Below, one piece after another: positions 1 through 11,992 of a stretch of 11,992 bases of DNA. Position numbers and translations under genes: made by a program. Under the pieces are notes generated by a model. That model ran no database searches, had not been told where the DNA came from, and saw only the letters and a program-made list of their open reading frames with translations. The stretch lies in assembly GCA_021777365.1 (NCBI GenBank), contig JAJYDP010000088.1:1-11992 (forward strand), given 5' to 3'. Source of the DNA: Chloroflexota bacterium. Lineage in GTDB: Bacteria; Chloroflexota; Limnocylindria; Limnocylindrales; CSP1-4. Numbering within the stretch: position 1 is the stretch's first letter; every line of letters starts with the position of its first letter.

Positions 1-296
1 GCATACGTTGCGGCCGGAGCGGCGACGATGGCGCAGCCGACGGTGCCAGACGATCCGGTGATGGTCGAGAGGCAGGCGTAGCCGCTGGGATACTCGGCGA
101 TTGCCACGTCATAGGTAGACGCGGTCTTGGTCGCGAACGTGGCGGACACCGACAGATCGCCCGCGGCGTTCGTAGTCACGAATGTCCGGTTCGACGTGAA
201 GAAGTGGTCGGAATAGGTGTAGGACGCAGCGAGCGCCGACCCGGCGACGACCAGTGCCAACAGGCCCGCGAGGGCTACGGGAACGATCCTGCGCAT
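1..296 (-). CDS. Small secreted protein, 3'-truncated by window edge
   Basis: I do not recognise a family. The start is the ATG at 296-294, with a full SD (AAGGAGG) six bases upstream. The first 98 residues are visible and the gene runs off the left edge. Residues 1-23 form a typical Sec signal peptide: MRR, a hydrophobic Ala/Leu/Val core, then a likely signal peptidase I site after AGSALA. The mature part is rich in Thr, Ser, Ala and Tyr, with beta-strand-like alternation and two cysteines near residues 80 and 92 that could form a disulfide outside the membrane. It is the last gene visible in the minus-strand series, 88 bp after the glycosyltransferase. Such a product could be exported by the host cell, as a cargo or superinfection-type protein, but nothing in the sequence fixes a role. 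Confidence 0.75.
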   Translation of the reverse strand, partial: MRRIVPVALAGLLALVVAGSALAASYTYSDHFFTSNRTFVTTNAAGDLSVSATFATKTASTYDVAIAEYPSGYACLSTITGSSGTVGCAIVAAPAATY

Positions 297-384
297 AGCA
301 ATCCTCCTTGTGGTCAAGCGGAGGTGACCGCTCATTCCACCAGTTTACTCGTGGTTTGGGGCCCCTGACCCCGAACGTCCACTG
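297..384 (-). other. Intergenic leader before the secreted-protein gene
   Basis: This gap lies between the glycosyltransferase stop and the secreted-protein start. It holds an 8-bp GC palindrome (GGGGCCCC, near 359-366) and a small hairpin at 317-332 (AGCGG/CCGCT stem, six-base loop) just upstream of the SD. No U-tract follows either one. I see no convincing -35/-10 pair, so the secreted-protein gene may be read from upstream transcription. Confidence 0.4.
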
Positions 385-1476
385 TCACTCCATCGCGGCG
401 CGGTAGGCGTCGGCCCACTCGGCGACGCGGATGCGGTAGTCGTACTCGCCAGCGACCCGCTCGCGGGCGGCGGCCACGAGGTCTGCGCGGAGCGCCGGGC
501 TCTCGACGAGCCGACGCACCGCCCGGGTCCACTCGTCCGTATTCTTCGCCACCAGCCCGTCGGTGCCGTCCCGGATCACGTCGTACGGCGCCGGGCGCAT
601 CAGGCGCTGCGCGACCGTGGGGACCCCGGCGCAGGTGTACTCCAGCCAGTGCAGCTCGCTCTTGGCGCGGTCGAAGTCGTCGCCCACCAGCGGAGCCAGC
701 CCCACGTCCGCGTGGACGTTCGCCAGCGTCCGCGCGAACGTCGGGATGTCGCGGACGTAGCGGATCACCTCGTCGAAGTACTTGGGCGCGTCCGGCCCGC
801 CCTCGTACCCGAAGAACACCGTGCGAAGCCGCGCAGCCCTGACCGCCGCGGCCGCCTGTCCGCCGCGGTGCTTGCCGTCCACGACCTCACCGAAGTAGTC
901 TCGCAGGCGGCTCTCCGCACTGGCGTAGAACAGGGCCGTGAGCGGACGGTCGGGCTTCTCGGTGGTGGGGCGGTAGATGGCCGGGTCGACGGCGTTGCGG
1001 ATCACCACGACGCGGCGGTTGTACGACCCGTAGCGAGCCGCGAGGGCTGGCGTGGCGACCGTCACGAGCGTGGCCTTGCGGGCCATCTCGCGGATGAAGT
1101 CGGCCTCCCGCTGGGCGATGGGGTACTGGCTGTTCCACCGCCCCATCGTCAGCGGGTCGTCGTCGGTGTCGTACAGGATCGGCTTCCGCCCCACCGCCCA
1201 GTCCCACGCCCAGCGCGTGGCGCTGAACGGCCGGTACCCCGCGCGGACGACCGACTGGACCTCGCGGAGCGTGTCGTAGAACCGGCGGAACACCACCACG
1301 TCCGCCCACTCCAGCGGCTCGGTGTCGAACGTCTCGCCGTCCCCGGCGATGCCGGAGACGTAGCGCGGCTCGATCCCGAGTGCCCGCAGCGGTGCGTCGA
1401 ACTGCGAGCCCCGGAAGTACGGGCACGGCATCTGGTGGTCGTGCCCGTAGTACAGGACGCGGAGCGGGTCGGACGT
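385..1476 (-). CDS. GT-B fold glycosyltransferase (GT4/Glycos_transf_1 type)
   Basis: Likely transfers a sugar from a nucleotide-sugar donor; the acceptor is unknown and could be a virion protein or host glycan. The N-terminal RVLYYGHDHQMP segment resembles the first beta strand of a GT-B Rossmann domain. The motif YDTDDD (about residues 103-107) is common in phage-type members. The C-terminal nucleotide-binding domain carries KSELHWLEYTCAGVP (about 272-286), an E-x7-E-like donor-site motif, followed by DGTDGLVA and a helical tail. The first ATG (1431) would delete strand beta1. The frame is open upstream to an ACG at 1474-1476, preceded by AGGAG with 8-nt spacing, so I place the start there, giving 363 aa. 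An ACG start is unusual and unproven. It follows the structural-protein gene by 19 nt, which suggests co-transcription and possibly virion glycosylation (inference). Confidence 0.85.
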   Translation of the reverse strand, partial: TSDPLRVLYYGHDHQMPCPYFRGSQFDAPLRALGIEPRYVSGIAGDGETFDTEPLEWADVVVFRRFYDTLREVQSVVRAGYRPFSATRWAWDWAVGRKPILYDTDDDPLTMGRWNSQYPIAQREADFIREMARKATLVTVATPALAARYGSYNRRVVVIRNAVDPAIYRPTTEKPDRPLTALFYASAESRLRDYFGEVVDGKHRGGQAAAAVRAARLRTVFFGYEGGPDAPKYFDEVIRYVRDIPTFARTLANVHADVGLAPLVGDDFDRAKSELHWLEYTCAGVPTVAQRLMRPAPYDVIRDGTDGLVAKNTDEWTRAVRRLVESPALRADLVAAARERVAGEYDYRIRVAEWADAYRAAME

Positions 1477-1484
1477 GGCGGCTT

Positions 1485-1489
1485 CTCCT
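1485..1489 (-). promoter_or_regulatory. SD for ACG-initiated glycosyltransferase
   Basis: AGGAG on the minus strand lies eight bases upstream of the in-frame ACG at 1476-1474. No ATG, GTG or TTG occurs in frame until the ATG at 1431, which lies past the first beta strand. Confidence 0.5.
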
Positions 1490-1495
1490 CTGGGT

Positions 1496-2539
1496 CTAAA
1501 ACGTAATCGTCCAGCCGTTGAGCTGGATCGTGTCCCCGTTGGCCGCGACGGTCGCGCTGGCGTTGAGCAGCGTCTCCAGCATCGGGATCGTCCCGGCTGC
1601 CGCGAGGCTGTTGAACAGGACCACCTTGTAGATCGTCACCGACGATGCGCCGGTGTACGTCCACGTGTGCAGGAACTCCTCCTGCCCGGCCCCGGGGAAC
1701 GTCGGGCTGGTCGCGCCGCCGTAGCCCGCGTACGCCCGCGCGAGCCCGCTCGTCGTCTGCTCGGTGGCCGTGCCGGTGGCCGTGCCGTCCCCCCACAGCC
1801 CGTCGGCCGAGCGCGTCACGTCCGTCGCCGTCGGCGTGGTCGAGGAGGTGGACAGCGCGACCCACCACGTCGGGAGCGACTGAGGCATGACGAACGCCGC
1901 CGACGCGGACGAGGGCGTGGTCCCCGCCGCTCCGGTGAGCGGCAGCGCGTACCACTGGTCGACCGTGATAACCGTGCCAGTGTTCGACAGGATCACGCCG
2001 ACGACCGGGTTCGTGAACGCATCGGCCGTGATGGCGTTCGCCACGAACAGCGCGTGCCCCTGCAGGCCCGCGTTGCCCGCCGACGAGGTGGCGGTCGGGT
2101 ATGTCCCGGTGCCTGTCCACGTCGTTGCCGTCGGGGCGGTCGCCGTGCCGGTGGCCGCGAGGCCGTTGAGGCTGGCCCCGATGTCCCCGAACGTGACGAT
2201 GCGCTGGAACTGGTCGCGCCCGACGTTGAGGCGCAGGTTGTGCGTGCGCCGGATCTCGCGGTACACGCGCCGCTGCATCCCGTACGCGCCGTCACGCCAC
2301 TCGCTGCCGACGAGCACCGGCTGGGTGAACGCGCAGGGGTCCTGCACCAGCTCGCGCGGGTGGACGCGGGTGCCGTCCGGCACGAGGCTCGTGGTCCGCA
2401 CCTCCACCGGGTCGAGGTAGCGCCGGTAGCCGGCCACGAACGAGGCCGGGTCGAGGATGCCGCGGGCGAGGAACCCGAGGTCCTCGGACACGCTGCGGCG
2501 GAAGCCGCTGGGGCGGCGCGAGACGAAGTCGTGGATCAC
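1496..2539 (-). CDS. Phage virion structural protein (decoration/fibre-like)
   Basis: A 347-aa protein with GTG start and strong SD (AGGAGG, four bases away). The N-terminal ~130 residues are mixed and charged, with RRVYREIRRTHNLRLNVGRD. The rest is very rich in Thr, Ala, Ser and Gly with runs such as GTATAPTATTWTGTGT, typical of beta-rich virion surface proteins. The C-terminus, with hydrophobic strands ending in GDTIQLNGWTITF, resembles the terminal strand of many phage head or tail structural proteins. No enzymatic motif is visible. Its position downstream of the capsid gene and before a glycosyltransferase fits a decoration, head-fibre or minor tail protein. The Thr/Ser-rich surface would suit O-glycosylation, but that is only inference. 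The exact family is not recognised. Confidence 0.75.
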   Translation of the reverse strand: MIHDFVSRRPSGFRRSVSEDLGFLARGILDPASFVAGYRRYLDPVEVRTTSLVPDGTRVHPRELVQDPCAFTQPVLVGSEWRDGAYGMQRRVYREIRRTHNLRLNVGRDQFQRIVTFGDIGASLNGLAATGTATAPTATTWTGTGTYPTATSSAGNAGLQGHALFVANAITADAFTNPVVGVILSNTGTVITVDQWYALPLTGAAGTTPSSASAAFVMPQSLPTWWVALSTSSTTPTATDVTRSADGLWGDGTATGTATEQTTSGLARAYAGYGGATSPTFPGAGQEEFLHTWTYTGASSVTIYKVVLFNSLAAAGTIPMLETLLNASATVAANGDTIQLNGWTITF

Positions 2540-2562
2540 TGACCCTCCTGTCGGGAACGACG

Positions 2563-2577
2563 GCGCCGCTTCGGCGC
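2563..2577 (-). other. Intercistronic GC hairpin
   Basis: GCGCCG/CGGCGC arms around a three-base loop sit in the 81-nt gap between the Cys-rich gene ending at 2621 and the structural gene starting at 2539. No U-tract follows, so it is more likely an mRNA stability or processing element than an intrinsic terminator. Confidence 0.35.
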
Positions 2578-2620
2578 GACTCTCCCCTGCCGGTGCGGCG
2601 CCACCGCCGGCGGGGGCCGA

Positions 2621-2836
2621 TCAGTAGCCCGCCGGCCGCACCCCGCGCTCGGAGTCCGGCAGGCGACCGGCCTTGTGCGCCCTGCTGGCGCAGCGCCGGC
2701 AGAGATACGCAGCCCGCGAGCCGTAGTAGGCGATGTGCTGGTGACAGAAGCTGCCGCCGCAGTCGGCGCACTGCTCGACGACGTAGCCGCGACTCAGGCG
2801 CGCGCACAGCGGACAGAGCGCGGCCGATCGTCCCAG
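2621..2836 (-). CDS. Small zinc-finger-like protein (71 aa)
   Basis: The frame encodes a compact Cys/His-rich protein: CPLC near the start, then CADC, CHQH and CRRC, enough ligands for two zinc sites in a treble-clef or RING-like arrangement. The family is not recognised; small zinc proteins of this kind often mediate protein or nucleic acid contacts in phages. No ATG, GTG or TTG precedes the first CPLC. An in-frame CTG at 2836-2834 has GGAGG eight bases upstream and gives 71 aa, so CTG initiation is my choice. The SD overlaps the stop of the preceding gene (TAG at 2844-2842), which suggests translational coupling. Confidence 0.65.
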   Translation of the reverse strand: MGRSAALCPLCARLSRGYVVEQCADCGGSFCHQHIAYYGSRAAYLCRRCASRAHKAGRLPDSERGVRPAGY

Positions 2837-2841
2837 TGAGG

Positions 2842-3213
2842 CTACCTCCGCGCGCGCCGCGCCGGAGCGGGCCGGTCCGCGAGCACCGTCGCCGCGCTGA
2901 CGAGCCGCTCGCCCATCTGGCGCACGGCCGCGGACGCCTCGTCCTCGCGCTGCTGGAACTCGTCCAGTTGCTCGCCGGTGAGCGGGATGCCCTTGCCCTG
3001 CGGCTCCAGCGTCCCGTCGGCCCGGCGGCGGTACGACTGGTACCGCGGCGTCTCGACCCAGCCCAGCCTGCGGAGGTACGGCGCGCACGCGTCGCAGTCG
3101 ACCGCCATCGGGGAGCGGTCGCCCTCCTTCGGCGGCTCGGCCCGAACGTGCTGGTGGCCCGTCTCGGGGATCGAGACGGCGGTGGTGCGGTAGTCGGTGT
3201 AGAGGACGGTCAC
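2842..3213 (-). CDS. Hypothetical phage protein with CDAC motif (123 aa)
   Basis: The start is GTG at 3213, overlapping the previous gene's stop in a GTGA junction, with AGGAG seven bases upstream. The N-terminal part is strand-rich (TVLYTDYRTTAVSI). A central VDCDACAPYLRRLGW segment provides one Cys pair; the C-terminal ~50 residues are charged and helical with Gln/Glu repeats, ending in an Arg/Ala tail. No known catalytic motif is visible. The four-base overlap implies co-translation with its upstream neighbour. A function cannot be assigned; a small structural or regulatory accessory protein is possible. Confidence 0.7.
   Translation of the reverse strand: MTVLYTDYRTTAVSIPETGHQHVRAEPPKEGDRSPMAVDCDACAPYLRRLGWVETPRYQSYRRRADGTLEPQGKGIPLTGEQLDEFQQREDEASAAVRQMGERLVSAATVLADRPAPARRARR
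2845..2849 (-). promoter_or_regulatory. SD for CTG-initiated zinc-finger protein
   Basis: GGAGG on the minus strand lies eight bases upstream of CTG 2836-2834. It is embedded in the last codons of the upstream gene. Confidence 0.5.
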
Positions 3214-3485
3214 ACTGACGCTCCTTCGACCTCTCGCCCGCAGCGCGGGCACGTTCGCTCCCAATCCCACAGGCCGCGCCGGCAGCACGACCGACTGGCG
3301 GTCCGCGTGGCGCGGGAGGGCTTCACCTCGATCAGCGCGTCGTAGCGCCGGAGGGCCGACGAGCCGCGGATCGCCGCAGCCTGCTCGTCCGTGACGTGGA
3401 TGCGGCCGCGATGGTCGGCGTGGATCGACCCCCCGCCGTCGAAGTCGACGCCGCGTGCGCCGCCGAGCAGCGCGAAGTCCGGCAT
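3210..3485 (-). CDS. Hypothetical small Cys-containing protein (91 aa)
   Basis: The start is the ATG at 3485 with GGAGGG seven bases upstream. The open frame extends further upstream, but that part is Arg-rich, lacks a good SD, and runs through a large inverted repeat, so it is excluded. The N-terminal half is Gly/Asp-rich. Residues near 65-85 carry a CC pair and then CPRCG, a possible zinc knuckle. It overlaps the next gene by four bases, showing that it is translated. No family is recognised. Confidence 0.7.
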   Translation of the reverse strand: MPDFALLGGARGVDFDGGGSIHADHRGRIHVTDEQAAAIRGSSALRRYDALIEVKPSRATRTASRSCCRRGLWDWERTCPRCGREVEGASV

Positions 3486-3505
3486 GCCGTATCCCTCCGA
3501 TGCGA

Positions 3506-3555
3506 CGACGGGTGCCCGCCTGAAACCCCCGAGAGTATGGGATGGGCACCCGTCG
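3506..3555 (-). repeat. 12-bp perfect inverted repeat, 26-nt loop
   Basis: The arms CGACGGGTGCCC (3506-3517) and GGGCACCCGTCG (3544-3555) are perfectly complementary. They lie 20 nt upstream of the 91-aa gene start, so in the minus-strand transcript a large hairpin would form ahead of its SD. There is no U-tract. It could be a transcript processing site, an attenuating structure or a protein-binding site. Confidence 0.6.
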
Positions 3556-3756
3556 CCTATGCGCTTCCGGCCAGCCTCGCGGCTGCCTCGTGTTGGTGGG
3601 GAGGCTTCACGCACCTCCCGTGAGCGTCCTGTTCGAGCCGCGGAGGCCGGTCGGCACAGACGCAGCGGAGCCCTCAACGGTGGCTCGACGACCTCACCTT
3701 ACGCGCGAGGCTCGGCAGGCAGCCCGTCCGGCGCGGGTACCGTCCTGCGGCGGTGG

Positions 3757-3776
3757 GGCCGGGTGCCAGCCCGGCC
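3757..3776 (-). other. Hairpin just downstream of tRNA-Gln
   Basis: A perfect 7-bp stem (GGCCGGG/CCCGGCC) with a six-base loop starts eight bases after the tRNA CCA end. It could protect or help process the tRNA 3' end, or stop transcription. The U-tract of an intrinsic terminator is missing, so I do not call it a terminator. Confidence 0.4.
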
Positions 3777-3784
3777 TCGTGTGG

Positions 3785-3858
3785 TGGCAGCGGGCCGTGG
3801 AGTCGAACCACGGTCTGACGGTCCAGAGCCGCCCGTCGTACCTCTGAACGAGCCCGCT
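3785..3858 (-). tRNA. tRNA-Gln (anticodon CTG), CCA encoded
   Basis: The minus strand folds as a cloverleaf. The acceptor stem AGCGGGC/GCCCGCT has 7 of 7 pairs. The D-arm has a three-pair stem. The anticodon stem GGCGG/CCGTC has loop CTCTGGA, with U33 and anticodon CUG at 3824-3826 reading CAG. The T-arm CGTGG/CCACG has loop TTCGACT. The discriminator G is followed by an encoded CCA. Phage-borne tRNAs commonly supplement translation of codon-biased virion genes or replace host tRNAs cut by defence nucleases; which applies here cannot be told. Confidence 0.9.
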
Positions 3859-3905
3859 GTGGTGGCGCGACGGGGGACTCAACGTTCGATCCGCTGGCCT
3901 GTGCC

Positions 3906-3926
3906 GGCAGGTTCGGTGGGCCTGCC
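3906..3926 (-). other. Hairpin upstream of tRNA-Gln
   Basis: GGCAGG (3906-3911) pairs with CCTGCC (3921-3926) around a nine-base loop, about 48 nt ahead of the tRNA 5' end. It may be a processing or protective stem. Confidence 0.35.
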
Positions 3927-4116
3927 ACAGACGAGGCCTCGCGGCCTCAGCCCCCTACGCCCTCTCGTCGGACTGCGCGCCGTGCGTAGTCTAGCCCCCT
4001 GCCGGTCCAGTAACCAGCTTTCAGCCGAGGGTTTCACTCGGGGCATCGGGGGCGAGCCGGACCCGTTTCTTCCGCCCGAGAGGCTGACGCCCGTCGCTGG
4101 GCTGCGGTATCCGGCG

Positions 4117-4533
4117 TCACGGAGTGTACGTCCCGCTGACGCCGCGCTCCTCGCGGTCGCGCCGGCGGGACTCCAGCCAGTGCAGCGCCTCCTCGCAGTG
4201 GGTGATCGCGAGGCTCGTCTCCCGGCTGGGGGTGTTCGGCTCGTGATTGAGTTGGCGGAGTCGCTGGATGACGAGCGGCAGGATCGTCTCGGGAACGTCA
4301 CCGACGAGCTGTCCGCCGGTGAGGGATCGCGGGCGGTCCTGCCACACGATCCGCGAGCCGAGCGGGCTTCGCGAGGCGGTCGTCCCGTCAGGAGCGTCCA
4401 CCCGTTCGTACGACGCGATCTGCACGATCGGGTCGTTGTCCTCGCTGACGGGGCACATCGAGAAGTACTCGCCGAAGTCGCGCCAGTACGCACCGTTGGC
4501 TCCGACGACGACTCGGGCAGGCAGGTCGGGCAT
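4117..4533 (-). CDS. Hypothetical phage protein; C-terminus weakly Acb2-like
   Basis: A 138-aa protein starting at ATG 4533 with GGAGGAGG five bases upstream. The N-terminal half is strand-like, with RVVVGANGAYWRDFGEYFSM. The C-terminal half is two helices with PSRETSLAITHCEEALHWL (about residues 103-121), followed by a basic segment and GVSGTYTP. The pattern SRE-SLA(I/L)T-x2-EEA-x2-W is the signature I associate with Acb2-type cyclic-oligonucleotide sponges that block CBASS, and with related short phage proteins. The N-terminal half is extra compared with minimal Acb2 (about 90-100 aa). The call rests on motif memory alone; an unrelated helical hairpin is possible. It stands alone between the capsid gene and the tRNA. 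Confidence 0.7.
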   Translation of the reverse strand: MPDLPARVVVGANGAYWRDFGEYFSMCPVSEDNDPIVQIASYERVDAPDGTTASRSPLGSRIVWQDRPRSLTGGQLVGDVPETILPLVIQRLRQLNHEPNTPSRETSLAITHCEEALHWLESRRRDREERGVSGTYTP

Positions 4534-4805
4534 GTTGCCCTCCTCCGGGGCATGCTGCCCCGCTGTGGCCGAGCGGTCACGGCCTATCCGCTCGCGTCCA
4601 GCACTCCCGTCCGACCGGCCCGGCCGTCGACACTTCCGAGTGGATACGGAGCCGCCCGGAACCGGGACGCGGTGGCTGGATCGGCATGTAGTCGATGCCG
4701 CCCCATTGACGCAGGGGCGGCCTCCGCGGCTCCAGTTCGGTCCGGTGTCAGCCTCTCACGACTGATCGTCCCGTCCTCGCGGCCTGTGAGCGTGCCGCGC
4801 TGGAG
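4534..4805 (-). other. Gap downstream of capsid gene with GC hairpin
   Basis: This 272-nt gap carries one strong hairpin at 4697-4721: an 8-bp stem GCCGCCCC/GGGGCGGC with a nine-base loop, about 85 nt after the capsid stop. It lacks a U-tract; it could be a 3' end stabiliser or a factor-dependent termination site. A 40-codon frame in the gap has no SD and is not called. Confidence 0.45.
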
Positions 4806-5956
4806 CTAACTCCAGTCGCCGTTCGCCGTCGAGCCGGTCCTCTGGATGCCCTGAATGATGCCGCTCAGCTGGGGAGCGACCGAGAACAGGGTCCCGTAGA
4901 GGAAGATCGAGTAGCGGAACGTCGGGTCGATGACCGGCCACGCGACGGACACGTAGTCCTGCACGTTCCGGATCTCCCACGCGTTGCCCACGTTGGAGAA
5001 GGACATCGGCACCTGATACGAGAACAGGAACGCCGTGCCCTGCGTGAGCCACGGGTGGACGACGATGCGCACGACCGACCGCGTGAACGGGTTGACGAAC
5101 TGCGACACCGCAGCGCCGGCCCGCACGTTGTCGATCTCGTCCTGCGTGATGAACAGGTTGTACGCCTGCTGCCCGCCGGACGCGAGGCTGAGGAGGTTCT
5201 GGCTGAAGTTGCTCAGGTCCAGAGCCTCGGCCACCAGCTCCTGCGGGTCGGCCCGGAAGCCGCCGTTGACGCTGGTGTTCGTCGTGCCGCTGTTGTCGTA
5301 CAGCCCGGCGAGCGCGTCGCTGAGGAGCGCTGCCGTGATGGACGACCCGGCCTTCTGGTTGATGTACCCGCCGGTGAACGACCCGTCGGAGGGGTACGTC
5401 CCCGACTGGGTGTTGCCCGTGAGGACCGCCAGCAGACCGTCGTAGTCGTAGTTCGACCCGGTGCCGCTGTCGGTGGTGGGCGGCTGGGTGCCGCCCGTGG
5501 GGAGCGCGCCCTGCAGGGTGTACTTGTACGCCCCGACGTTCGACGCCATCAGGTAGTACGTCCCTGCGGCCGTACCGGTGGTGACGTAGAGGTCGTACTG
5601 GAGCGCGCCCGCCGAGGGCGAGATCGCCACGTCCACGACCTGCCCGGCCGAGACTCCGACGTTCGCGGCGGCCGAGGCTGCCGTCTCGCCGTAGTAGTTC
5701 TTGGCGACCACCTTGACGTACACGTCCGACGTGACGCCGGTGAGCGCCGTCTCGTTCGACGTGGCCGTCCGGGCAGTCAGCGACGGGGCTGCCGGGGTGG
5801 AGATGTTGTTGTACATGCCGGCGATGATCTGGTGCTCCTCGGCCAGCATCGCCTCCTGCAGCAGGATGAGGTTGACGAGCGACGAGATGTCCTCGAAGCC
5901 CTGTCCGGCGAACTGGGCCAGCCACGAGGCCGCCTCGGTCAGCCCAAAGAACTTGT
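4806..5956 (-). CDS. Major capsid protein, exon 3 (C-terminal, HK97 fold)
   Basis: Encodes residues 228-610 of the spliced capsid. It starts with the last two bases of a split Tyr codon, so the joined sequence reads VIVP-Y-KFFGLTEAASW. The first part (residues 229-278) continues the HK97-type core with QGFEDISSLVNLILLQEAM. Residues about 281-387 are an FN3/Ig-like insertion: strands with SDVYVKVVAKNYYGE and GALQYDLYVTT, ending PTGGTQPP. The chain then returns to the capsid fold, with RADPQELVAEAL, then VRIVVHPWLTQGTAFLFSY and a C-terminus of APQLSGIIQGIQ. Ig-like insertions are known in actinophage and other HK97-type capsids and would project from the shell. Without splicing this exon has no SD and its first ATG lies 36 codons inside, supporting exon status. 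Confidence 0.9.
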
Positions 5957-6986
5957 CGATCTGTTACCCCGAAGTCTTGACGACTTCGTGGCCGGGTCGT
6001 TTCCGCCCGGCTCTGCACGTCTCCGTGCAGACCTGACTATGTCACGATCTGGAGCGAGCGAAGTAGCAGGGAAGTCCACAGTACCGGCCACGACGGTTGG
6101 GTCGCGTCGTGAACGTCTTGCCGCATCCGATGCAGACGTGCTCGACATCTGGCCCCGCCCATCGGGGATGTGTCGGCCCGGCAAACCGGGTACGGATCGT
6201 GTACTGAGGCTCCTTGTCTGCTACCAGCCCGTGGGCATCGACGACCCGCTCGATACAGGCGCTGGCATCCCGATTGATCTCGCTGCCGGTAAACCGGTGG
6301 ACTCGATAGCCCGCTGCCGCGAGAGCCGCGTCGCGAGCGATGTCCTTCCGGTGCCGGAGGCTCAGCTGATGCTGAGCGCCGTCGGCCTCGATGATGATGG
6401 GTGCCTGATTGACCTCGATGTCGACGAGGTACCTGCCGAGCAGGAGCGAGTGTGTGCTGAACCCGATGCCGCGGGCTCGCAGTGCATCGTGCAGTCGAAG
6501 CTCGATGGGAGAGTTCACCGCTGGCCCTGCCATCGTCGGTAGGCGATGGAGGAGTGACTGGCGATGGCTCTCTCGGAACGACTCCGTTTGGGTGCTCCGC
6601 AGGTGCGCGGCGCGTCGTTCCTGACTCCATGTCGTCCCGGGTCGATTGCCTCTTGGCCGTGTGACCCGTGCCTCACGGAGGATCGGCTTGACTGCTCGAT
6701 GGAACTCGCGGCCGAGGACCTCTACCGTCTCTCCATCGACGTATCGGCGGATGATCTCCGCCCGCTCGTCGACGGTCAGCGGCTGCCAGCCCTTCGGCCT
6801 CGTCATGCCTAATAGCTTACTCTATCTCCAGATCCCGCGCGTGTAGTCGATACGGACTCGCCCCTCGGCAGTGAGGGGATTGCCTCGGCGTCGTCCACAT
6901 GTCCGGCAGGTGCCGCGAAGGAGGTTCGCCGATACAGCGCGGTTCTTCACTCGCGCGTCGCCGCGCGAGGCCCCACTAGTGCTTGT
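5957..6986 (-). mobile_element. Group I intron 2 in capsid gene (1030 nt, with HEG)
   Basis: Self-splicing intron interrupting a Tyr codon (phase 1) of the capsid gene. P1: exon CCCU plus intron AC pairs with GUGGGG (6976-6971), with the U.G wobble exactly at the splice site (U6987/G6974). P2 is an 8-bp hairpin with GCGA tetraloop (6950-6969). P3 is CCGCGC (6937-6942) with GCGCGG (6835-6840). P5 is a hairpin at 6861-6878. P7 pairs GACTA (6844-6848) with TAGTC (6035-6039). Three 3' hairpins follow, the second with loop CGGAAACGA, then GGGGTAACAG, ATCG and the splice site. The last base is G, as in group I introns. The endonuclease gene sits between the two strands of P7, in the P8 region. Helix names are assigned by eye. 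Confidence 0.88.
6042..6806 (-). CDS. Intron 2 homing endonuclease, DUF559/Vsr-like (EDxHD type)
   Basis: A 254-aa protein, ATG start, inside intron 2. It likely cuts the intronless capsid gene so that the intron is copied in by repair. Residues 11-36 look like a helix-turn-helix. The nuclease domain (about 98-195) carries the Vsr/DUF559 pattern: E102 in PIELRLHDAL, D129 in GRYLVDIEV, then IIIEADGAQH with E140, D142 and H146, and D155/D159 in KDIARD. This matches the EDxHD layout of phage homing nucleases such as I-Bth0305I. A C-terminal zinc knuckle (C225, C228, C243, C247) probably contacts DNA. The stop TGA overlaps the start of the S/P7 strand, so the gene ends where the ribozyme core resumes. 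No clear SD precedes the ATG. Confidence 0.85.
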   Translation of the reverse strand: MTRPKGWQPLTVDERAEIIRRYVDGETVEVLGREFHRAVKPILREARVTRPRGNRPGTTWSQERRAAHLRSTQTESFRESHRQSLLHRLPTMAGPAVNSPIELRLHDALRARGIGFSTHSLLLGRYLVDIEVNQAPIIIEADGAQHQLSLRHRKDIARDAALAAAGYRVHRFTGSEINRDASACIERVVDAHGLVADKEPQYTIRTRFAGPTHPRWAGPDVEHVCIGCGKTFTTRPNRRGRYCGLPCYFARSRS

Positions 6987-7194
6987 AGGGGACGATCACG
7001 TCGTAGCCGTTCTGGCTGCCCGACGCGGGCAGCGTGTTCGGCCACGAGCTGAACGAGCCGCCGTTGAACTCGCCCATCGACCAGCGCATCGGGTTACCCG
7101 CCGTGCCGCCGGTGTGCGAGCCGCTGATCCCGGTGATGACCTTCGCGCGGTGGGCGACGCCCTGCCCGGGGAGGCGAGGGAGCTTGTTGCGGAA
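6987..7194 (-). CDS. Major capsid protein, exon 2 (208-nt mini-exon)
   Basis: Encodes residues 159-227 plus the first base of codon 228. The peptide begins FRNKLPRLPGQG, joining directly to YPVYSP of exon 1, and ends YDVIVP, joining to YKFFG of exon 3. The segment AKVITGISGSHTGG and the later GGSFSSWPNTLP fit the N-arm and E-loop region of HK97-type actinophage capsids. The exon has no start codon or SD of its own. Reading the unspliced RNA past its end meets TAG three codons after the split codon. It is flanked on both sides by related group I introns. Confidence 0.88.
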
Positions 7195-8187
7195 CCTCCT
7201 GTTACCCCGTCGCATCCTCGCGACGTGCCTCGGTCGTTTCCGCCGAGGTCTCACGATCTCCCGTGAGAGCGGACTGTGTCACCGCCTGTCGGCGGGAGCC
7301 CCATCGGGCTTCCCACCAGCGCCTGCGCCACTCCGGGTCCGCCCAGAGCCCGCGCATGCGCGCACCGTTCGCTTGCCGCCACTCCTCGCTGACCGCCGGA
7401 CTCCATCGGTGGGGGTTGGCGCTGCCCGCGATCTCGTAAGTCGGAGCATCCTCCGCCACGAGTCCGGCAGCCGCCGTTACCTCCGCAATGCAGCGGTCGG
7501 CGTCTGCGTAGATCTGCGTGCCGGTGAACCGGAAGACCCGGTATCCGGCTGCTCGCAGCGCCTCGTCTCGCACCCCGTCGTGCTCCCGCTGGAGCCGGTG
7601 GTAGTGGAGCGCGCCGTCCGCCTCGATGACGACCGGCGCCTGATTGACGAGAATGTCTGCGAAGTACCTTCCAAGGAGTGGCTGCTGGGAGCGGAAGCCG
7701 ATCCGCGCCCGCTTCAGTGCGTCGTGGAGCTTTCCTTCGAGCGGGGACCACCCTGCCGGGCCTGTGATGTGGCCGAGTCGAGCGATCCACTTCTGACGCT
7801 GCTCGTCGCGCCACGCGGGGTCGTTCCAGTGCCGGGCACTGGCCGCTCGCCAGTGATCCGACTTCCTCTGGCCCTTCACGTGGCCACGTGGCTTGATCGG
7901 GATACCCTGTCGCTCCAGCTCGTCCCGCACGGCGTAGAACCGGCGGTGGTAGAGCTTGGCGACGCGTATGACGTTCCCGACCCGAGCGTAGTCCTCTGCT
8001 AGGTGGCTCCAGTCTGTGACAGGTGCCCCGCGTGCAGTCTCTACGGAGTCCCCGGTGGCTGGCCGGGGTTCCCTCGGCGTCGTCCTCGTGTCCACGGGAA
8101 TATTGTAGCCCGTAGACTGTCGGATGTTCACCGATACAGCGGGGTTTGCGATGCGGGATCACTCCCGCATGGCCCTTGCTATCGCGA
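7195..8187 (-). mobile_element. Group I intron 1 in capsid gene (993 nt, with HEG)
   Basis: Self-splicing intron inserted in phase 0 after the Pro codon CCT. P1 pairs exon GCCU and intron U (8191-8187) with AGGGC (8176-8172), with U8188.G8175 at the splice site. P2 is a perfect 8-bp hairpin with GTGA tetraloop (8151-8170). P3 is CCCCGC (8139-8144) with GCGGGG (8026-8031). P5 is CCCCGG/CCGGGG (8050-8068). P7 pairs GACTG (8035-8039) with CAGTC (7272-7276). Three hairpins follow, the middle one with loop CGGAAACGA, then GGGGTAACAG, GAGG and the splice site. P3, P5 and P7 differ from intron 2 by compensatory changes. The shared strings TGTATCGG and GACGACGCCGAGG mark the common core. Confidence 0.88.
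7202..8095 (-). CDS. Intron 1 homing endonuclease, DUF559/Vsr-like (EDxHD type)
   Basis: Paralogue of the intron 2 enzyme; about 58% identical by eye over the ~90-residue nuclease domain. From the GTG at 8095 the key residues are near E120, D147 (GRYFADILV), VVIEADGALH (E158, D160, H164) and D177. An N-terminal helical segment resembles a helix-turn-helix. Two short repeats, HWNDPAWRDE and LWADPEWRRR, flank the nuclease domain and may be DNA-binding modules; the zinc knuckle of its paralogue is absent. The start is unclear: the GTGs at 8095 and 8131 both lie within ribozyme core sequence and lack an SD. The frame also reads through the S/P7 strand and P9 hairpins, and its TAA stop is part of the conserved GGGGTAACAG near the 3' splice site, so protein and ribozyme sequence overlap at both ends. 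Confidence 0.82.
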   Translation of the reverse strand: MDTRTTPREPRPATGDSVETARGAPVTDWSHLAEDYARVGNVIRVAKLYHRRFYAVRDELERQGIPIKPRGHVKGQRKSDHWRAASARHWNDPAWRDEQRQKWIARLGHITGPAGWSPLEGKLHDALKRARIGFRSQQPLLGRYFADILVNQAPVVIEADGALHYHRLQREHDGVRDEALRAAGYRVFRFTGTQIYADADRCIAEVTAAAGLVAEDAPTYEIAGSANPHRWSPAVSEEWRQANGARMRGLWADPEWRRRWWEARWGSRRQAVTQSALTGDRETSAETTEARREDATG

Positions 8188-8661
8188 AGGCGAGTACACC
8201 GGGTAGGTCAGCCGCGAGGGGGCCACGAGGTCGAACGGCGCGAACGACGTCGACAGCGGGCTCCCGATGCTGATCGACTTCCCGAGCGCCGCGGCCAGCT
8301 CGTTGACCGCCGCGACGATCTGGTTCATCGACTGCTGCTGCGGCATCTGCTGGTACGCGGTCAGGAACTGCCCGAACGCGGACTGGTTGATGCCCTTGAG
8401 GACGCGCGGGGTGTCGGCCTTCGTCCGCATCGCGCTCTTGCGGAGCGCGGCCATGAGGGCCTGTCCCTCGTGGTCGGCGCTCTTCTGGCGCATCGGCTTC
8501 GGGTTGGGACCGTGGCCGGTGACGCGGAACGCCGAGCCCTTGACGAGTTCGGCGGCGAGCGGCGCGGCGTTGTCCTTCGCCCGCTTCGCCACCACCGAGA
8601 AGTCGGACAGCCGCGGAACGCCAGTCGGCGCCGCGCGACCGCCGTCGAGGACGGTTGCCAG
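8188..8661 (-). CDS. Major capsid protein, exon 1 (N-terminal)
   Basis: Encodes residues 1-158 of the spliced 610-aa capsid. The N-terminal ~120 residues are helical and charged, consistent with a delta/scaffold domain or N-arm. The end, FAPFDLVAPSRLTYPVYSP, is the typical lead-in to the HK97-type core. Without splicing the frame stops three codons later (TAG, 8181-8179). The start is chosen as CTG at 8661-8659 with AGGAG six bases upstream, giving M-ATVLDGGRAAP. The first GTG is at 8595, has no SD, and would leave 64 nt of open in-frame sequence unused. It lies 39 nt downstream of the protease gene, the usual protease-then-capsid order. Confidence 0.85.
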
Positions 8662-8667
8662 TGATCG

Positions 8668-8672
8668 CTCCT
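8668..8672 (-). promoter_or_regulatory. SD for CTG-initiated capsid gene
   Basis: AGGAG on the minus strand lies six bases upstream of CTG 8661-8659. It is the only good SD between the protease stop and the capsid coding sequence. Confidence 0.55.
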
Positions 8673-8676
8673 GTCT

Positions 8677-8690
8677 GCGCCCGTGGGCGC
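8677..8690 (-). other. Protease-capsid intercistronic hairpin
   Basis: GCGCC/GGCGC arms with a four-base loop sit four bases upstream of the capsid SD. This may set the ratio of capsid to protease by RNA processing or by translational insulation. Confidence 0.35.
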
Positions 8691-8700
8691 TGGTGTCGGG

Positions 8701-11568
8701 TTACTCCGCCAGATCGTCGATGTCGACGCCCAGCTTCGCGAGCTTGCGGATGGCTCGCGTGCGCTGGTCCGGTGCGCCCGCACGGGCGACGCCGGCCCAG
8801 TAGTCGACGACGGACTGCCGCTCCTGCTCCTGCTTGGCCTGACGCCGAGCCTCCTTGGCGCTGGGACCGATCTGGACCGCCTTGCGAACCGCCGTGCCGC
8901 GGTCGGCACGCTGTGCGGGATCGCCCTGCGAGGCCATCTGATCCACGAGCGTCTGGAGCGAGGCGACCTTGCCGACCCACGGCCCGACGGCCTTGCTGAC
9001 CGCCGCGTCGATGTCGGCCTGCGTGATGCTGGTGATGACTGCCTCGGCGGAGGGCGCGACCTGCGTCGACCCGCCGAGCTTCTCGCCCGGTGCCGGCGCA
9101 GAGGCCGGGATCGCGAGCGGCTTGGGGAGGTTGCCCGCCCCGTTGGGGATCGTCCCGATGGACGGCGGGCGCTGGAACGACTGCGCGGGCTGGCGCGTGA
9201 TGCCGGCCCAGCCGGAGGGGTCGGGGGCCGTGAAGCTCCGATCCTCCGTCCCGTACGGCGGGTTGGGCGCGTCCATCCGGCACAGGTCCGGCATCAGCGC
9301 CACCAGCGCGTCGTGGAAGTCGGTCATCTTGTCGGCGAACGACCGCTGCTGCCCGTCCGTGAGCGGGCCGCGGTCGAACTGGTCGGCGTCCACCGGCCGC
9401 AGCGGGGCGGTGACCGTCTGGTCGTGCTCCGCCGTGGCGGTCATGGCCGCCTCGCCGGACGTGATGTACGGCCGGCGGAACTGGCCCGGCTGTGGCGGGT
9501 CGGTGGGCTTCGGGATGGTCGGCCCGCTCCCGCCCGGCCCCATCGCGTCGGCGTTGGCCTGCTTGAACGCGCCGTGCAGCTCGTCGCGCGCGGCGAGGAA
9601 CAGCGACGCGGCCTCGGGCTCCGACTGCTCGGCGTCGAGGAACACGGTGAGGGCGTAGTACGCCTTCGCCAGCTTGTGGACGCCCATCGCGTGCTGGCCG
9701 CCGCCGCCGTCCTCCTGCACCTCGTTGGCGAGCATGGAGTACAGCGCCTGCTGCGCCATCGGCCCCATCGCCGCCGCCACGCCGTTCTTCTGGATCGACG
9801 GGTAGGCGTCGAGCAGCACCTCCGTGCTGTACGCCGGGCAGGCGCTGTCGTGCGCCCGGCGGAGGGCCTTCGGCAGCGCGGCCAGCGTGCTCGGGCGGAG
9901 CATCGGCATCGCCCCCTTGCCGAGCAGGCGTTCGGACTCGCGGATCTGACGCTTGGCGACCTTGGCGGCCACCTTGGCCTCCTTCTTGGCCTGCTGCTCG
10001 TCCTTCCACGACTGCGGCAGCTCGGCCACGTACGCCGCGCCCTTGCGCCGCGCGATGCTCGTGAGGCGCTTCTGGAACTGCGCGAACGTCTTGGGTCCCT
10101 TGTACCGGCCCCACGACGACACCGCGTCGGACACGTCGCCGGGACTGGCGATGGGGAACCCGCCGTCCGGCGCGTCCTCCGGGAACACGAAGTCCTTGGC
10201 CGGGATCTTCGACCGGTCGGTGCCGCCGCCGACGTTGGGGTCCTTCGCCGGTGCGTCGCCCGCTGCCTTCGACGCCGCCTGCCCGACCTGCTGCACGTTG
10301 TCCGCGCCCTTGAGCTTGAACCCGCACTGGTCGCAGTACGCCGCGTCGACGTCGTTGTGCTTGCCGCAGTTGGGGCAGATCACCGTCTCGTCGGGGTCGG
10401 CGTGGTACGGCTTCGGGTCGTACCCGTCGTCCGCCTGCTTGGCGGCCTTCTTCGCGCTGGGGATCGCCGGCCCGTCGCCGGTGGGCGGACCCATCGAGGG
10501 CTGCTCGTTGGCGACCTTGCGGCCCCTCGGCTTCTTCGCCTTCGGAGGCTTCTTGCCGAACGGCGGGGCAGCGCCCTCGAACGGGGGCTTCGCGGCCGGG
10601 GTGCTGGCGGCGTCCGGGGCGGCTGCCTTGTCGCCGTCGTCGTCACCGCCCGACACGTCGCCGGCGTCCGACGCGAGCTGCTCCGCGGCCTCCACGATGT
10701 CCTGCACGTCGTCGGCCACGTCGGACAGGTCCGCGCCCTTCGCCGCCGGCATCGCCGCCCCGCACTTGTCGCACTTCCCGTCCGTGAAGGCGGTCCCGCC
10801 GCACTTCCCGCACTTGGCGGCCTTCTCGGCGTCGGGAGGGGCGTCCTCCTGCGCGGTCGTCGTCTGGGCGTCGGTCACTGACTCCTCCTGCTCGTGCGCG
10901 TGAGCGTGCGGCTGTCCCTCGTGGAACTCGTCGTGCGGCGGGGTGCCCGCCGCGTGGGTGTGGGGATGCTTGTGGGGGATCCCGCCCGGCCCCATGTGCA
11001 TGTGGCTGTGCGTGTACGAGCCCGCCTTTACGGCGTCGGGCTCGACCGCCCCGCCGACGATCTTGCCGACGTACTCCACGCCGCCGTTCTTGGCTCGCTT
11101 GGCGATGGCGAAGTGCGCGTTGTAGTTGGCCCCGCGGTCGACGAGGCTCAGCTCCACGATCTCGCCGTCCACGATGCGGCCGTTGCGGGCGGATCGGTCG
11201 CGGACGATGCGGGGACGGGCGATCCCCACCGAGTAGTCGCTGTAGATGCCCTCCAGCACCTTCTGGACGGCGACCGGATCGACGACCTTGCTCTTGACGA
11301 GCTGCGCGCCATCCTCCGCCACGAGCTGCACGCCCTTGCCCACGGCGGAGGGCTGGTGCATCTCCCTGACGTTGGCGCGCGTGGCGAACCACTTGGCCAT
11401 CGCCCGGTTCGCGAACTCCGGGTCGACGATCTGGTCGTCCGAGTCCACGGTCCCGTCAGTCGCCGTGCCGAACACGTAGACGCTCCCGTCGGGTGCCTTC
11501 TCGACGCGGCTGATGCGGCCGAGGCGAGCGTAGGTCAGCTCCCCCGACGGGTCGACGATGGATGCTAC
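8701..11568 (-). CDS. Prohead protease / scaffold fusion (XkdF-like), with zinc ribbons
   Basis: A very long (about 955 aa) capsid maturation protease; typical ones are 200-400 aa. Residues 1-160 match the HK97/XkdF-type protease: YVFGTATDGTVDSDDQIVD, REMHQPSAVGKG (likely catalytic His 71), YSVGIARP (likely Ser 113) and LSLVDRGANYNAHF. Then come a His-rich tract (187-225, 12 His), zinc ribbon 1 (Cys 253, 256, 266, 269), an acidic Ala-rich linker, zinc ribbon 2 (398-415) and a DUF6582-like segment (about 455-521, KIPAKDFVFPE to RRKGAAYVAELP). The remainder is helical and Pro-rich, plausibly scaffold. The first standard start, GTG 11475, falls inside the first conserved strand. The frame is open upstream to GTA 11568-11566, with GGAGG six bases before it, overlapping the previous stop. 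That start is tentative; coding upstream of 11475 is well supported. Confidence 0.88.
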   Translation of the reverse strand, partial: VASIVDPSGELTYARLGRISRVEKAPDGSVYVFGTATDGTVDSDDQIVDPEFANRAMAKWFATRANVREMHQPSAVGKGVQLVAEDGAQLVKSKVVDPVAVQKVLEGIYSDYSVGIARPRIVRDRSARNGRIVDGEIVELSLVDRGANYNAHFAIAKRAKNGGVEYVGKIVGGAVEPDAVKAGSYTHSHMHMGPGGIPHKHPHTHAAGTPPHDEFHEGQPHAHAHEQEESVTDAQTTTAQEDAPPDAEKAAKCGKCGGTAFTDGKCDKCGAAMPAAKGADLSDVADDVQDIVEAAEQLASDAGDVSGGDDDGDKAAAPDAASTPAAKPPFEGAAPPFGKKPPKAKKPRGRKVANEQPSMGPPTGDGPAIPSAKKAAKQADDGYDPKPYHADPDETVICPNCGKHNDVDAAYCDQCGFKLKGADNVQQVGQAASKAAGDAPAKDPNVGGGTDRSKIPAKDFVFPEDAPDGGFPIASPGDVSDAVSSWGRYKGPKTFAQFQKRLTSIARRKGAAYVAELPQSWKDEQQAKKEAKVAAKVAKRQIRESERLLGKGAMPMLRPSTLAALPKALRRAHDSACPAYSTEVLLDAYPSIQKNGVAAAMGPMAQQALYSMLANEVQEDGGGGQHAMGVHKLAKAYYALTVFLDAEQSEPEAASLFLAARDELHGAFKQANADAMGPGGSGPTIPKPTDPPQPGQFRRPYITSGEAAMTATAEHDQTVTAPLRPVDADQFDRGPLTDGQQRSFADKMTDFHDALVALMPDLCRMDAPNPPYGTEDRSFTAPDPSGWAGITRQPAQSFQRPPSIGTIPNGAGNLPKPLAIPASAPAPGEKLGGSTQVAPSAEAVITSITQADIDAAVSKAVGPWVGKVASLQTLVDQMASQGDPAQRADRGTAVRKAVQIGPSAKEARRQAKQEQERQSVVDYWAGVARAGAPDQRTRAIRKLAKLGVDIDDLAE

Positions 11569-11867
11569 TGAGCACCTCCGCGGTGGGGAGCGGACTCGAC
11601 GTGGAGCCGCTCGTACTCGGCGCGACGCCTGCCGCCGTCGGGGGCGGCGCGCTCGGCCATGACGATGAGGCAGTCTGCGATGAGGTCAAGGTATGCCAGC
11701 GACAGTTCCTCGCGCCGGTCGGCCAGAGCGTACGTCGGGCCGGCCTCGCCGACGGCGGGATGTGCCGGGACGGACTGGTGGACCCAGCGTCCGCAGAGGG
11801 TGCAGCTCTGCGTCATCGGCACGCCGTGGAGGCAGGTGGTCGGAGGGATCGACTGGAACGACATCAC
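11565..11867 (-). CDS. Small Cys-containing protein (about 100 aa)
   Basis: First gene of the minus-strand series. It starts at GTG 11867 or the adjacent ATG 11864; neither has a clear SD. The N-terminus has CLHG followed by CTLCGRW, which could bind one zinc ion. The middle (ALADRREELSLAYLDLIADCLIVMAE) is a good amphipathic helix, and the C-terminus is Arg/His-rich. No family is recognised. Its stop TAG lies against the start region of the protease frame, and its last codons contain the GGAGG used by the protease, suggesting coupled translation. Confidence 0.65.
   Translation of the reverse strand: MMSFQSIPPTTCLHGVPMTQSCTLCGRWVHQSVPAHPAVGEAGPTYALADRREELSLAYLDLIADCLIVMAERAAPDGGRRRAEYERLHVESAPHRGGAQ
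11575..11579 (-). promoter_or_regulatory. SD before the protease frame
   Basis: GGAGG on the minus strand lies six bases before GTA 11568-11566, where the protease frame resumes open reading after the TAG of the upstream gene. The GTAG junction is a one-base variant of the usual GTGA or ATGA stop-start overlaps. Confidence 0.45.
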
Positions 11868-11875
11868 GTTACCCG

Positions 11876-11904
11876 TTGACAGACCCTTGCGGGTCGGCTA
11901 GTAT
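11876..11904 (+). promoter_or_regulatory. Sigma70-type promoter with palindromic spacer
   Basis: TTGACA (11876-11881) and TAGTAT (11899-11904) are separated by exactly 17 bp, a near-consensus vegetative promoter directed rightward. The spacer contains the inverted repeat GACCC-TTGC-GGGTC (11882-11895), a good position for a repressor operator. The downstream gene starts at 11932 after a short leader. This is the only clear promoter I can see in the window. Confidence 0.8.
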
Positions 11905-11931
11905 GGTCTTACCAGCAAGGGAGCGACACCG

Positions 11932-11992
11932 ATGCAGACGTTCCAGACCAGCATCCTCCTGAACGAGCAGCCCGGCCACATGCTCTGGCGCT
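11932..11992 (+). CDS. Divergent plus-strand gene, 5' end only
   Basis: ATG at 11932 with GGGAG eight bases upstream and a strong promoter ahead. Only 20 residues are visible, beginning MQTFQTSILLNEQPGHMLWR, and the frame is open to the window edge. This is too short to assign a family. Its opposite orientation to the virion genes and its own promoter suggest a differently timed gene, such as an early or regulatory one (inference). Confidence 0.7.
   Translation, partial: MQTFQTSILLNEQPGHMLWR

Follow-up and report, generated by a model that had tools for sequence, protein, structure and literature searches.

Two predicted group I introns with endonuclease genes in a phage major capsid gene, and related introns retrieved mostly from capsid genes

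How can a phage make its major capsid protein from coding sequence that lies in three separate pieces? The question is raised by an 11,992-nucleotide stretch of DNA from a Chloroflexota bacterium (assembly GCA_021777365.1, contig JAJYDP010000088.1, positions 1 to 11,992; hereafter the window), in which three minus-strand frames between 4806 and 8661 resemble successive parts of one capsid protein. A preliminary description, made from the letters of this stretch, proposed that an HK97-type capsid gene is split into three exons by a pair of group I introns that each contain an endonuclease gene, and called this arrangement rare. The observation of a capsid gene in three exons is confirmed here, and we consider it very likely that this is a phage SU10/HK97-type major capsid gene carrying two related group I introns with DUF559-type open reading frames (ORFs) in the P8 loop.

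All features of the gene lie on the minus strand. Exon 1 (8188..8661; 474 nucleotides (nt), 158 codons) was placed from the joined frame aligned to the intronless homologues P0001–P0003, and its tblastn match covers P0001 residues 2–163. Exon 2 (6987..7194; 208 nt) matches PHROG 13692 at positions 59–91 (E 0.001), and exon 3 with the stop codon (4806..5956; 1151 nt) matches the same family at positions 113–490 (E 2.3e-45) and P0001 at residues 230–612 (tblastn). Joined in this order, the exons give 611 codons including the stop, and hence a 610-residue protein with no internal stop. When the joined protein was searched against ∼5.8 billion proteins, 601 relatives were found among the 7998 candidates scored. 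The closest three, P0001–P0003 (612 amino acids (aa), intronless), are 71–72% identical to it and align gap-free at both joints, YPVYSP/FRNKLPR and VIVP/YKFFGL (slashes mark the joint). Alignment to intronless capsids, which the preliminary description had named as a check, thus bears out its claim that the three frames form one protein, contiguous at both junctions.

Splice junctions were located by an open search, in which every frame-compatible, stop-free pair of cuts within 45 nt of the borders (1566 pairs for intron 1 and 1030 for intron 2) was scored against P0001. The top score was shared by three pairs for intron 1 and six for intron 2, each set being the same joint slid along identical bases, and alternative exon borders were ruled out. 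A single pair in each tied set combines an exon-final T (8188 and 6987) with an intron-final G (7195 and 5957), and these are the junctions first proposed, 8188/7194 and 6987/5956. An additional search was run with the T/G combination imposed as a condition. At the second site the sliding ambiguity is narrower, because the intron found there in a relative (L101, below) starts ACGTC and that of the window ACAAG. As had been reported, translation of the unspliced message would soon end: beyond the 5′ splice site of intron 1, TCG CGA is followed by TAG as the third codon, and beyond that of intron 2, AC AAG CAC is followed by TAG as the fourth. It follows from these stops that virion production would need splicing. 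The same in-frame stops, just inside the 5′ boundary of both inserts, rule out inteins. Group II introns were set aside, as the boundaries and core are those of group I. Sequencing error or a simple pseudogene was rejected because both inserts, 993 and 1030 nt long, contain ribozyme cores and L101 has introns at the same sites.

Assignment of the protein as a capsid comes chiefly from distant homology and fold. PHROG 13692, the best family for the window's exons, carries no assigned function, and exon 3 scores 19.8 bits against Pfam SU10_MCP (PF17236), under the cut-off of 24.1. Five phage records with distant capsids were found with exon 3; in Alicyclobacillus phage MMB025 the match bears the annotation major head protein and adjoins a head maturation protease, and the other four are hypothetical proteins. 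A sequence search of the Protein Data Bank (PDB) with the capsid profile found no capsid, and a viral scan with exon 3 found no relatives. A fold model was built on P0001 (43 sequences) rather than on the window protein, and it matches the capsids of SPO1 (1.4e-9), SU10 (3.3e-8) and HK97 (1.4e-5), each with probability 1.00. On this model, the window gene would be SU10-like by fold and of the HK97 type, though not filed in PF17236. The HK97-type label, offered earlier with no proof, therefore appears right by way of the homologue. Another relative, P0006, is identical at 346/347 residues to window exon 3 from its first ATG and is stored as a 347-residue protein, an example of capsid genes in metagenomes being truncated by gene callers.

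Intron 1 (7195..8187; 993 nt) and intron 2 (5957..6986; 1030 nt) are delimited by the junction search and by covariance-model matches. Inspection by eye showed P3, P7, an ORF-flanking P8 and P9 in both inserts. In intron 1, the putative internal guide sequence AAGGGC (8172..8177) pairs with GCCU/U, with a U·G at the cut; this pairing was found by eye, and the P1 script favored another, mainly intron-side pairing, so P1 of intron 1 is less sure. In intron 2, the script placed the guide GTGGGG at 6971..6976, pairing with CCCU/AC and again with U·G at the cut, and the pairing recurs in intron 2 of L101. P3 consists of CCCCGC (8139..8144) and GCGGGG (8026–8031) in intron 1, and of CCGCGC (6937..6942) and GCGCGG (6835–6840) in intron 2, with P3 of intron 1 showing compensatory changes relative to intron 2 and relatives. 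P7 is formed by GACTG (8035..8039) and CAGTC (7272–7276) in intron 1 and by GACTA (6844..6848) and TAGTC (6035–6039) in intron 2. P8 of intron 2, with strands ATCTGGAG (6826..6833) and CTCCAGAT (6047–6054), brackets the ORF.

Support from beyond the window came from introns retrieved with an RNA-core pattern, GCTGTATCGGYGAAC...CCGAGGSAA...GACTRCACG, which found 59 stretches when scanned over IMG/VR. From these we took 30 ORF-less introns, none from the window or L101, as alignment A3; among them are L126, whose host gene belongs distantly to the window's capsid family, and L108 and L137, whose host genes are unassigned. In A3, 92.6% of cells pair in the drawn structure, compared to 28–46% when slid, and 23/41 pairs show two-sided changes. 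P8 aligned poorly (63% of cells paired), and P4 and most of P7 are invariant in the pair counts of alignments A2 and A3 and hence contribute no covariation. P7 rows were picked by complementarity, which makes the P7 pair partly a matter of construction; this does not apply to P2, P3 and P9. A covariance model built from A3 (R2) matched both halves of both window introns: 7991–8186 (E 9.4e-25) and 7232–7350 (E 1.5e-5) in intron 1, and 6801–6985 (E 9.8e-22) and 5995–6151 (E 9.6e-8) in intron 2. The core motif itself is not independent evidence, as the pattern was derived from the window's family, and an earlier model (R1), which contained the window's own rows, was not used. Rfam's Intron_gpI model recognized several relatives, namely intron 2 of L101, ORF-less and at the window's second site (E 4e-7), and L101 intron 3 (E 1.8e-9), both below the gathering threshold, the L126 intron at 50.0 of 50 bits, and the capsid intron of L227, of a second ribozyme class, at 60.7 bits. 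These data support the view, already put forward in the preliminary description, that both inserts are group I introns, that each contains an endonuclease ORF and that they interrupt a single major capsid gene; R2 matches, the P1, P3, P7 and P9 anatomy with covariation in relatives, and the same-site introns of L101 all point this way.

The ORF of intron 1 (7202..8131) and that of intron 2 (6042..6806) match Pfam DUF559 with E values of 1.2e-15 and 9.5e-14 (57.8 and 51.6 bits, cut-off 20.6), and share 46% identity over 186 aa. Judging from alignment, ORF 1 probably starts at GTG 8095, inside the ribozyme core, as does the ORF of L017. Vsr-like enzymes of the EDxHD family are probably akin to DUF559. 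The sole significant PDB relative found for the two ORFs is 3hrl, 'Endonuclease-Like Protein' (E 1.7e-6 for ORF 1 and 6e-4 for ORF 2). I-Bth0305I (PMC3943268), an EDxHD enzyme, is likewise an endonuclease of a phage intron. No relatives of ORF 2 were found in a viral scan, nor was any paper found in a literature search on DUF559, intron and phage. Seven capsid-intron ORFs proved mutually related by blastp (the Pfam scan covered the window's two). Among the seven, window ORF 2 is nearest (54% over 260 aa) to the one in intron B of L018. This intron (8244–9405 of L018) is inserted 1 nt from the site of window intron 2 (5957–6986), and its core opens with a different motif, AATTGCTGG, and gives only a weak 3′ match to R2 (18.6 bits). 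Related endonucleases at one site thus sit on different ribozymes, and endonucleases do change partners.

Several points weigh against reading the locus as a spliced capsid gene. The case for splicing is built on DNA sequence. The capsid fold comes from the P0001 model, with a mean predicted local distance difference test score (pLDDT) of 68.5, and the TM-scores of its matches are modest (0.19–0.33 by query length, 0.24–0.60 by target length). An Rfam search of the window at E ≤ 1 returned tRNA but no group I match (RF00028), presumably because the P8 ORFs split the core. The P1 control is weak, since 92% of 24 splice sites, but also 50% of 282 other T positions, reach at least five pairs. Finally, the capsid start codon is unsure: the frame is open from 8661, where exon 1 had been said to begin, but the codon there is CTG, and the earliest ATG, GTG or TTG is a GTG at 8595. 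This CTG stands behind AGGAG (8661–8664, minus strand) and is a possible start, ATG, GTG and TTG being absent at the homologous position. The first of these points leaves room for the idea that the introns are decayed and no longer splice, the window then representing a defective phage or prophage remnant. However, all three exons are open and close to intronless homologues, P3, P7, P8 and P9 are kept in both cores, and both endonuclease ORFs are open; we regard decay as very improbable.

In the reading that we favor, a capsid gene with two functional introns, each intron would fold into a ribozyme core (P1–P9) with its DUF559-type endonuclease ORF in the P8 loop. The ribozyme would cut behind the U that pairs with the G of the guide sequence and join the exons, the intron leaving with its terminal G, and the doubly spliced mRNA alone would encode the 610-residue protein. 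The endonucleases would most likely cut intronless capsid alleles, leading to intron copying between co-infecting phages, and the introns would belong to a ribozyme lineage that occurs chiefly in genes for major capsid proteins.

Does this capsid gene carry introns elsewhere? By hand count, we collected 113 distinct contigs with the gene (97 from three scans and 16 from a fourth), the scans of relatives having taken the best 80 of 205 and the best 80 of 135 candidates, with uninterrupted genes ranked first. At least 13 of the 113 contain one intron or more (L016, L017, L018, L019, L039, L058, L101, L201, L210, L221, L227, L228 and L231), or 12 if the near-identical L018 and L019 are taken as one; L107, L126, L146, L152 and L161 were found via their introns and stand outside this count. 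Together with a capsid gene in five fragments described in the accessible text of PMC7886860, this leaves the arrangement rare only in part.

The most informative relative is L101 (JAKAED010000254.1), a low-coverage contig of 3019 bases from an Actinomycetes metagenome-assembled genome. Its positions 278–2594 hold a close relative of the window gene with five introns, the first known by its 3′ end alone, which lies at the window's first site; the others are complete and measure 273, 234, 224 and 236 nt. The 273-nt intron occupies the window's second site and is ORF-less, its counterpart in the window being 1030 nt long, and the remaining three introns have no counterpart in the window. When joined, the L101 exons of 202, 1009, 32, 53 and 54 nt give a reading frame whose alignment with P0001 starts at residue 162 and reaches its end, and the last 140 coding bases are crowded with three short introns. 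Identity between the window and L101 is 268/276 in intron 1 (gaps excluded), 191/202 in exon 2, and 865/996 in the first 1009 nt of exon 3. Intron 1 and exon 2 match more closely than exon 3, the outcome to be expected had homing moved intron 1 together with flanking sequence. Alignments of L101 intron 2 with introns 3 and 4 collapsed to few columns and were not used.

Still more interrupted is the gene of L018 (6265–11694), with six group I introns (1211, 1162, 251, 273, 281 and 275 nt) of at least two ribozyme types. Two of these carry ORFs related to those of the window. Its seven exons include ones of 45 and 83 nt and a final one of 8 nt with the stop, and at the intron C junction one residue is lost relative to homologues if the rule of a terminal G is kept. 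L019, from a different metagenome, is identical to L018 between 8001 and 10739 and has the same exon positions. Exons of 28 nt (L107) and 16 nt (L231), each flanked by two introns, were recognized by eye.

These arrangements have precedents, described here from the accessible parts of the papers cited. LittleE, a cluster J mycobacteriophage, has a capsid-gene intron whose splicing was shown by reverse transcription PCR and N-terminal sequencing (PMC3706429); a further capsid intron, in lactococcal phage Tuc2009, is cited in the same paper. As in the window, the LittleE exon ends in U and the intron in G, but there is one intron, with an I-CreI-like endonuclease on the opposite strand, whereas the window has two introns with sense-strand DUF559 ORFs. 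In the zeta-group crAss-like genome OLRF01000054, the capsid gene lies in five fragments, and three of the four insertions have group I intron domains (PMC7886860). There too several insertions split a capsid gene, though in gut Bacteroidetes phages and in another capsid gene; for the PHROG 13692 gene of the window, cores and junctions are worked out, and there are up to six introns in the relative L018. Several group I introns per gene also occur in phage Twort (three in one gene, according to a reference title) and in Bastillevirinae, where genes with two or three are reported along with a short exon and exon skipping (PMC11878797). Their hosts are unlike the window's, being DNA polymerase, terminase and reductase genes, and the word 'capsid' is absent from the main text of PMC11878797; the terminase introns of Bastillevirinae encode a VSR-type endonuclease. 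The Jug gut phages contain 2,513 group I introns in 136 genomes, with metatranscriptome reads backing splicing for 37 of 76 (PMC12363816); these too are phage group I introns, but the interrupted genes named are terL, nrdD and DNA polymerase. PMC6669764 and PMC3322345 deal with introns in other genes. From what these sources state, capsid introns, a multi-fragment capsid gene and multi-intron phage genes are already known, and the window alone adds one more. Neither a capsid-bound group I lineage nor five- or six-intron capsid genes were found in our literature search, which covered titles and the starts of abstracts and left subscription journals mostly uncovered. LittleE is reckoned to have 775 copies of its capsid protein per virion (PMC3706429). 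As capsid protein is made in hundreds of copies per virion, each intron should tax virion yield, and a capsid gene holding six would call for splicing of very high efficiency.

Is there an association between these introns and capsid genes in general? The RNA-core pattern holds no capsid information, although it was built from capsid introns. Among its matches, 59/62 cores (56/59 stretches) lie within 461 nt of a major-capsid exon on the same strand, and when the 62 cores are reduced to 42 clusters, 39/42 are at capsid exons. Host exons were labelled first by PHROGs at E ≤ 0.001 and the remainder by tblastn to those exons. The hosts belong to the capsid family of the window (7 stretches), to a PHROG 10/PF05065-type family and to a PHROG 1357/PF25209-type family; the best family for the L116 host exon is PHROG 2263. 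Upstream frames (30 tested of 37 found) matched major head protein in 12/30 cases (L140 at 7e-4) and no family in 18/30, and downstream frames matched major head protein in 17/20 and no family in 3/20. No other kind of family, except ones of unknown function, was seen among these host frames at E ≤ 0.001. The exceptions L108, L119 and L137 have no family at that threshold, and the upstream frame of L108 resembles a major tail protein (E 0.024). A second core pattern, from other capsid introns, found 10 stretches, 7 of them at capsid exons, L018 and L019 included.

The other three of these 10 stretches, L234, L237 and L241, are of the second ribozyme class and share an identical 432-nt downstream exon of a major tail protein (PHROG 10528), likewise a virion protein made in large amounts. 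The match has an E value of 4.1e-7 in two scanned copies of that exon, and the three count as one case.

For a control, we used a generic group I pattern, which gave at least 120 stretches, 77 of them with an upstream frame 100 aa or longer; from a random draw of 40 of the 77, the first 30 were tested. These frames comprised 9 endonuclease ORFs, 8 with no family, 4 head scaffold, 2 major head (near-identical, 568/570 bases), 2 terminase, 2 DNA polymerase, 2 psbA and 1 Sak4. The four scaffold hosts (L244, L326, L327 and L346) belong to a single PHROG, 3927, and L272, among the eight frames with no family, has a capsid-like stretch downstream. A capsid panel, built from hosts of the core-pattern introns and from capsid relatives of the window, matched 3 of the 120 control loci retrieved, all near the core. 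Compared like for like (upstream frames, PHROGs), named hosts were 12 capsid and 0 other for the core pattern versus 2 and 7 for the control (Fisher P = 0.0003); with scaffolds counted as capsid, the figures are 12/0 versus 6/7 (P = 0.005), the items in these tests not being fully independent. Two other tests (P = 5e-8 and 1.3e-5) compared unequal methods, and nothing rests on them. A preference for capsid genes is thus improbable as a general trait of the phage group I introns in this collection, and we read the data as pointing to a capsid-specialised group I intron lineage.

An alternative is that the bias arises from a pattern derived from capsid introns, from homing to homologous sites and from sampling, so that common descent suffices and no specialised lineage exists. 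The origin of the pattern fits this account, as does the sharing of sites, which is expected within one capsid family, and the collapse of 62 cores into 42 clusters shows that some stretches are near-identical. Hosts were also assigned more thoroughly for the core-pattern introns (both flanks plus tblastn) than for the control (upstream frames alone), an inequality that raised our estimate of this alternative slightly. However, the 39 clusters at capsid exons fall in families that share no PHROG match in these scans (13692, 10 and 1357), and the generic pattern found mixed hosts. On balance we hold this alternative to be doubtful, though with a real chance of being correct, and continue to favor a lineage tied to capsid genes.

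If the introns do form such a lineage, how did they reach unrelated capsid genes? Endonuclease-driven homing explains shared sites within one capsid family, but as the families have no PHROG match in common, site-specific homing cannot account for transfer between them. Three explanations come into question: introns may insert into abundant late mRNA by reverse splicing, endonucleases may cut with relaxed specificity, or introns may survive selectively in capsid genes. One possibility that we take seriously, while still leaning away from it, is that new sites were reached at the DNA level, by relaxed cutting followed by illegitimate repair and not by reverse splicing. The mutual relatedness of the seven capsid-intron ORFs fits such a route, and so does the kinship of ORF 2 with the ORF of L018 intron B, at a site 1 nt off and in another core type. 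Yet many of the added introns, at 224–281 nt (L101 introns 2–5 and L018 introns C–F), are too short for an endonuclease ORF. Moreover, L101 introns 3–5 share the guide GGCC(G/C): their 5′ exons, two with CGGT and one with GGGT, pair with GGCC (by script for introns 3 and 5 and by eye for intron 4). Guides of 4–5 nt common to ORF-less introns at different sites fit reverse splicing. A wider P1 scan, run on families whose exact splice sites are not pinned down, speaks neither for nor against reverse splicing.

We offer as a tentative and rather unlikely proposal that the lineage is specialised in abundant late phage mRNAs and spread by reverse splicing of ORF-less RNA at guide matches of 4–6 nt, with DUF559 endonucleases then fixing the introns. 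If true, the mRNAs concerned would be those of the major capsid protein and, for the second ribozyme class, of a major tail protein in one case, and five- and six-intron capsid genes with exons down to 16 nt would be the outcome of this spread. According to the accessible text of PMC3984707, direct experiments had not, by 2014, backed the spread of group I introns by reverse splicing, and the best circumstantial evidence came from ribosomal DNA. A lineage of introns residing mainly in unrelated families of capsid genes would provide a phage system in which this route could be tested.

The remaining genes of the window include an ORF upstream of the capsid gene (11475–8701, minus strand; 924 residues), the start of which resembles head maturation proteases (PHROG 9427, E 1.9e-5). 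The protein has a zinc ribbon in its middle and looks long for a head protease. A glycosyltransferase-like protein (PHROG 7162, 4.5e-25) is encoded at 388–1431 (minus), and a tRNA-Gln (CTG) lies at 3785–3858 (minus), near the late genes. After the capsid gene, 4120–4533 (minus) encodes a 138-residue protein (PHROG 2428, 5.5e-14). The Acb2/Tad1 hairpin domain, a domain of anti-CBASS and anti-Thoeris sponges, scores below its cut-off in this protein (23.8 of 27 bits).

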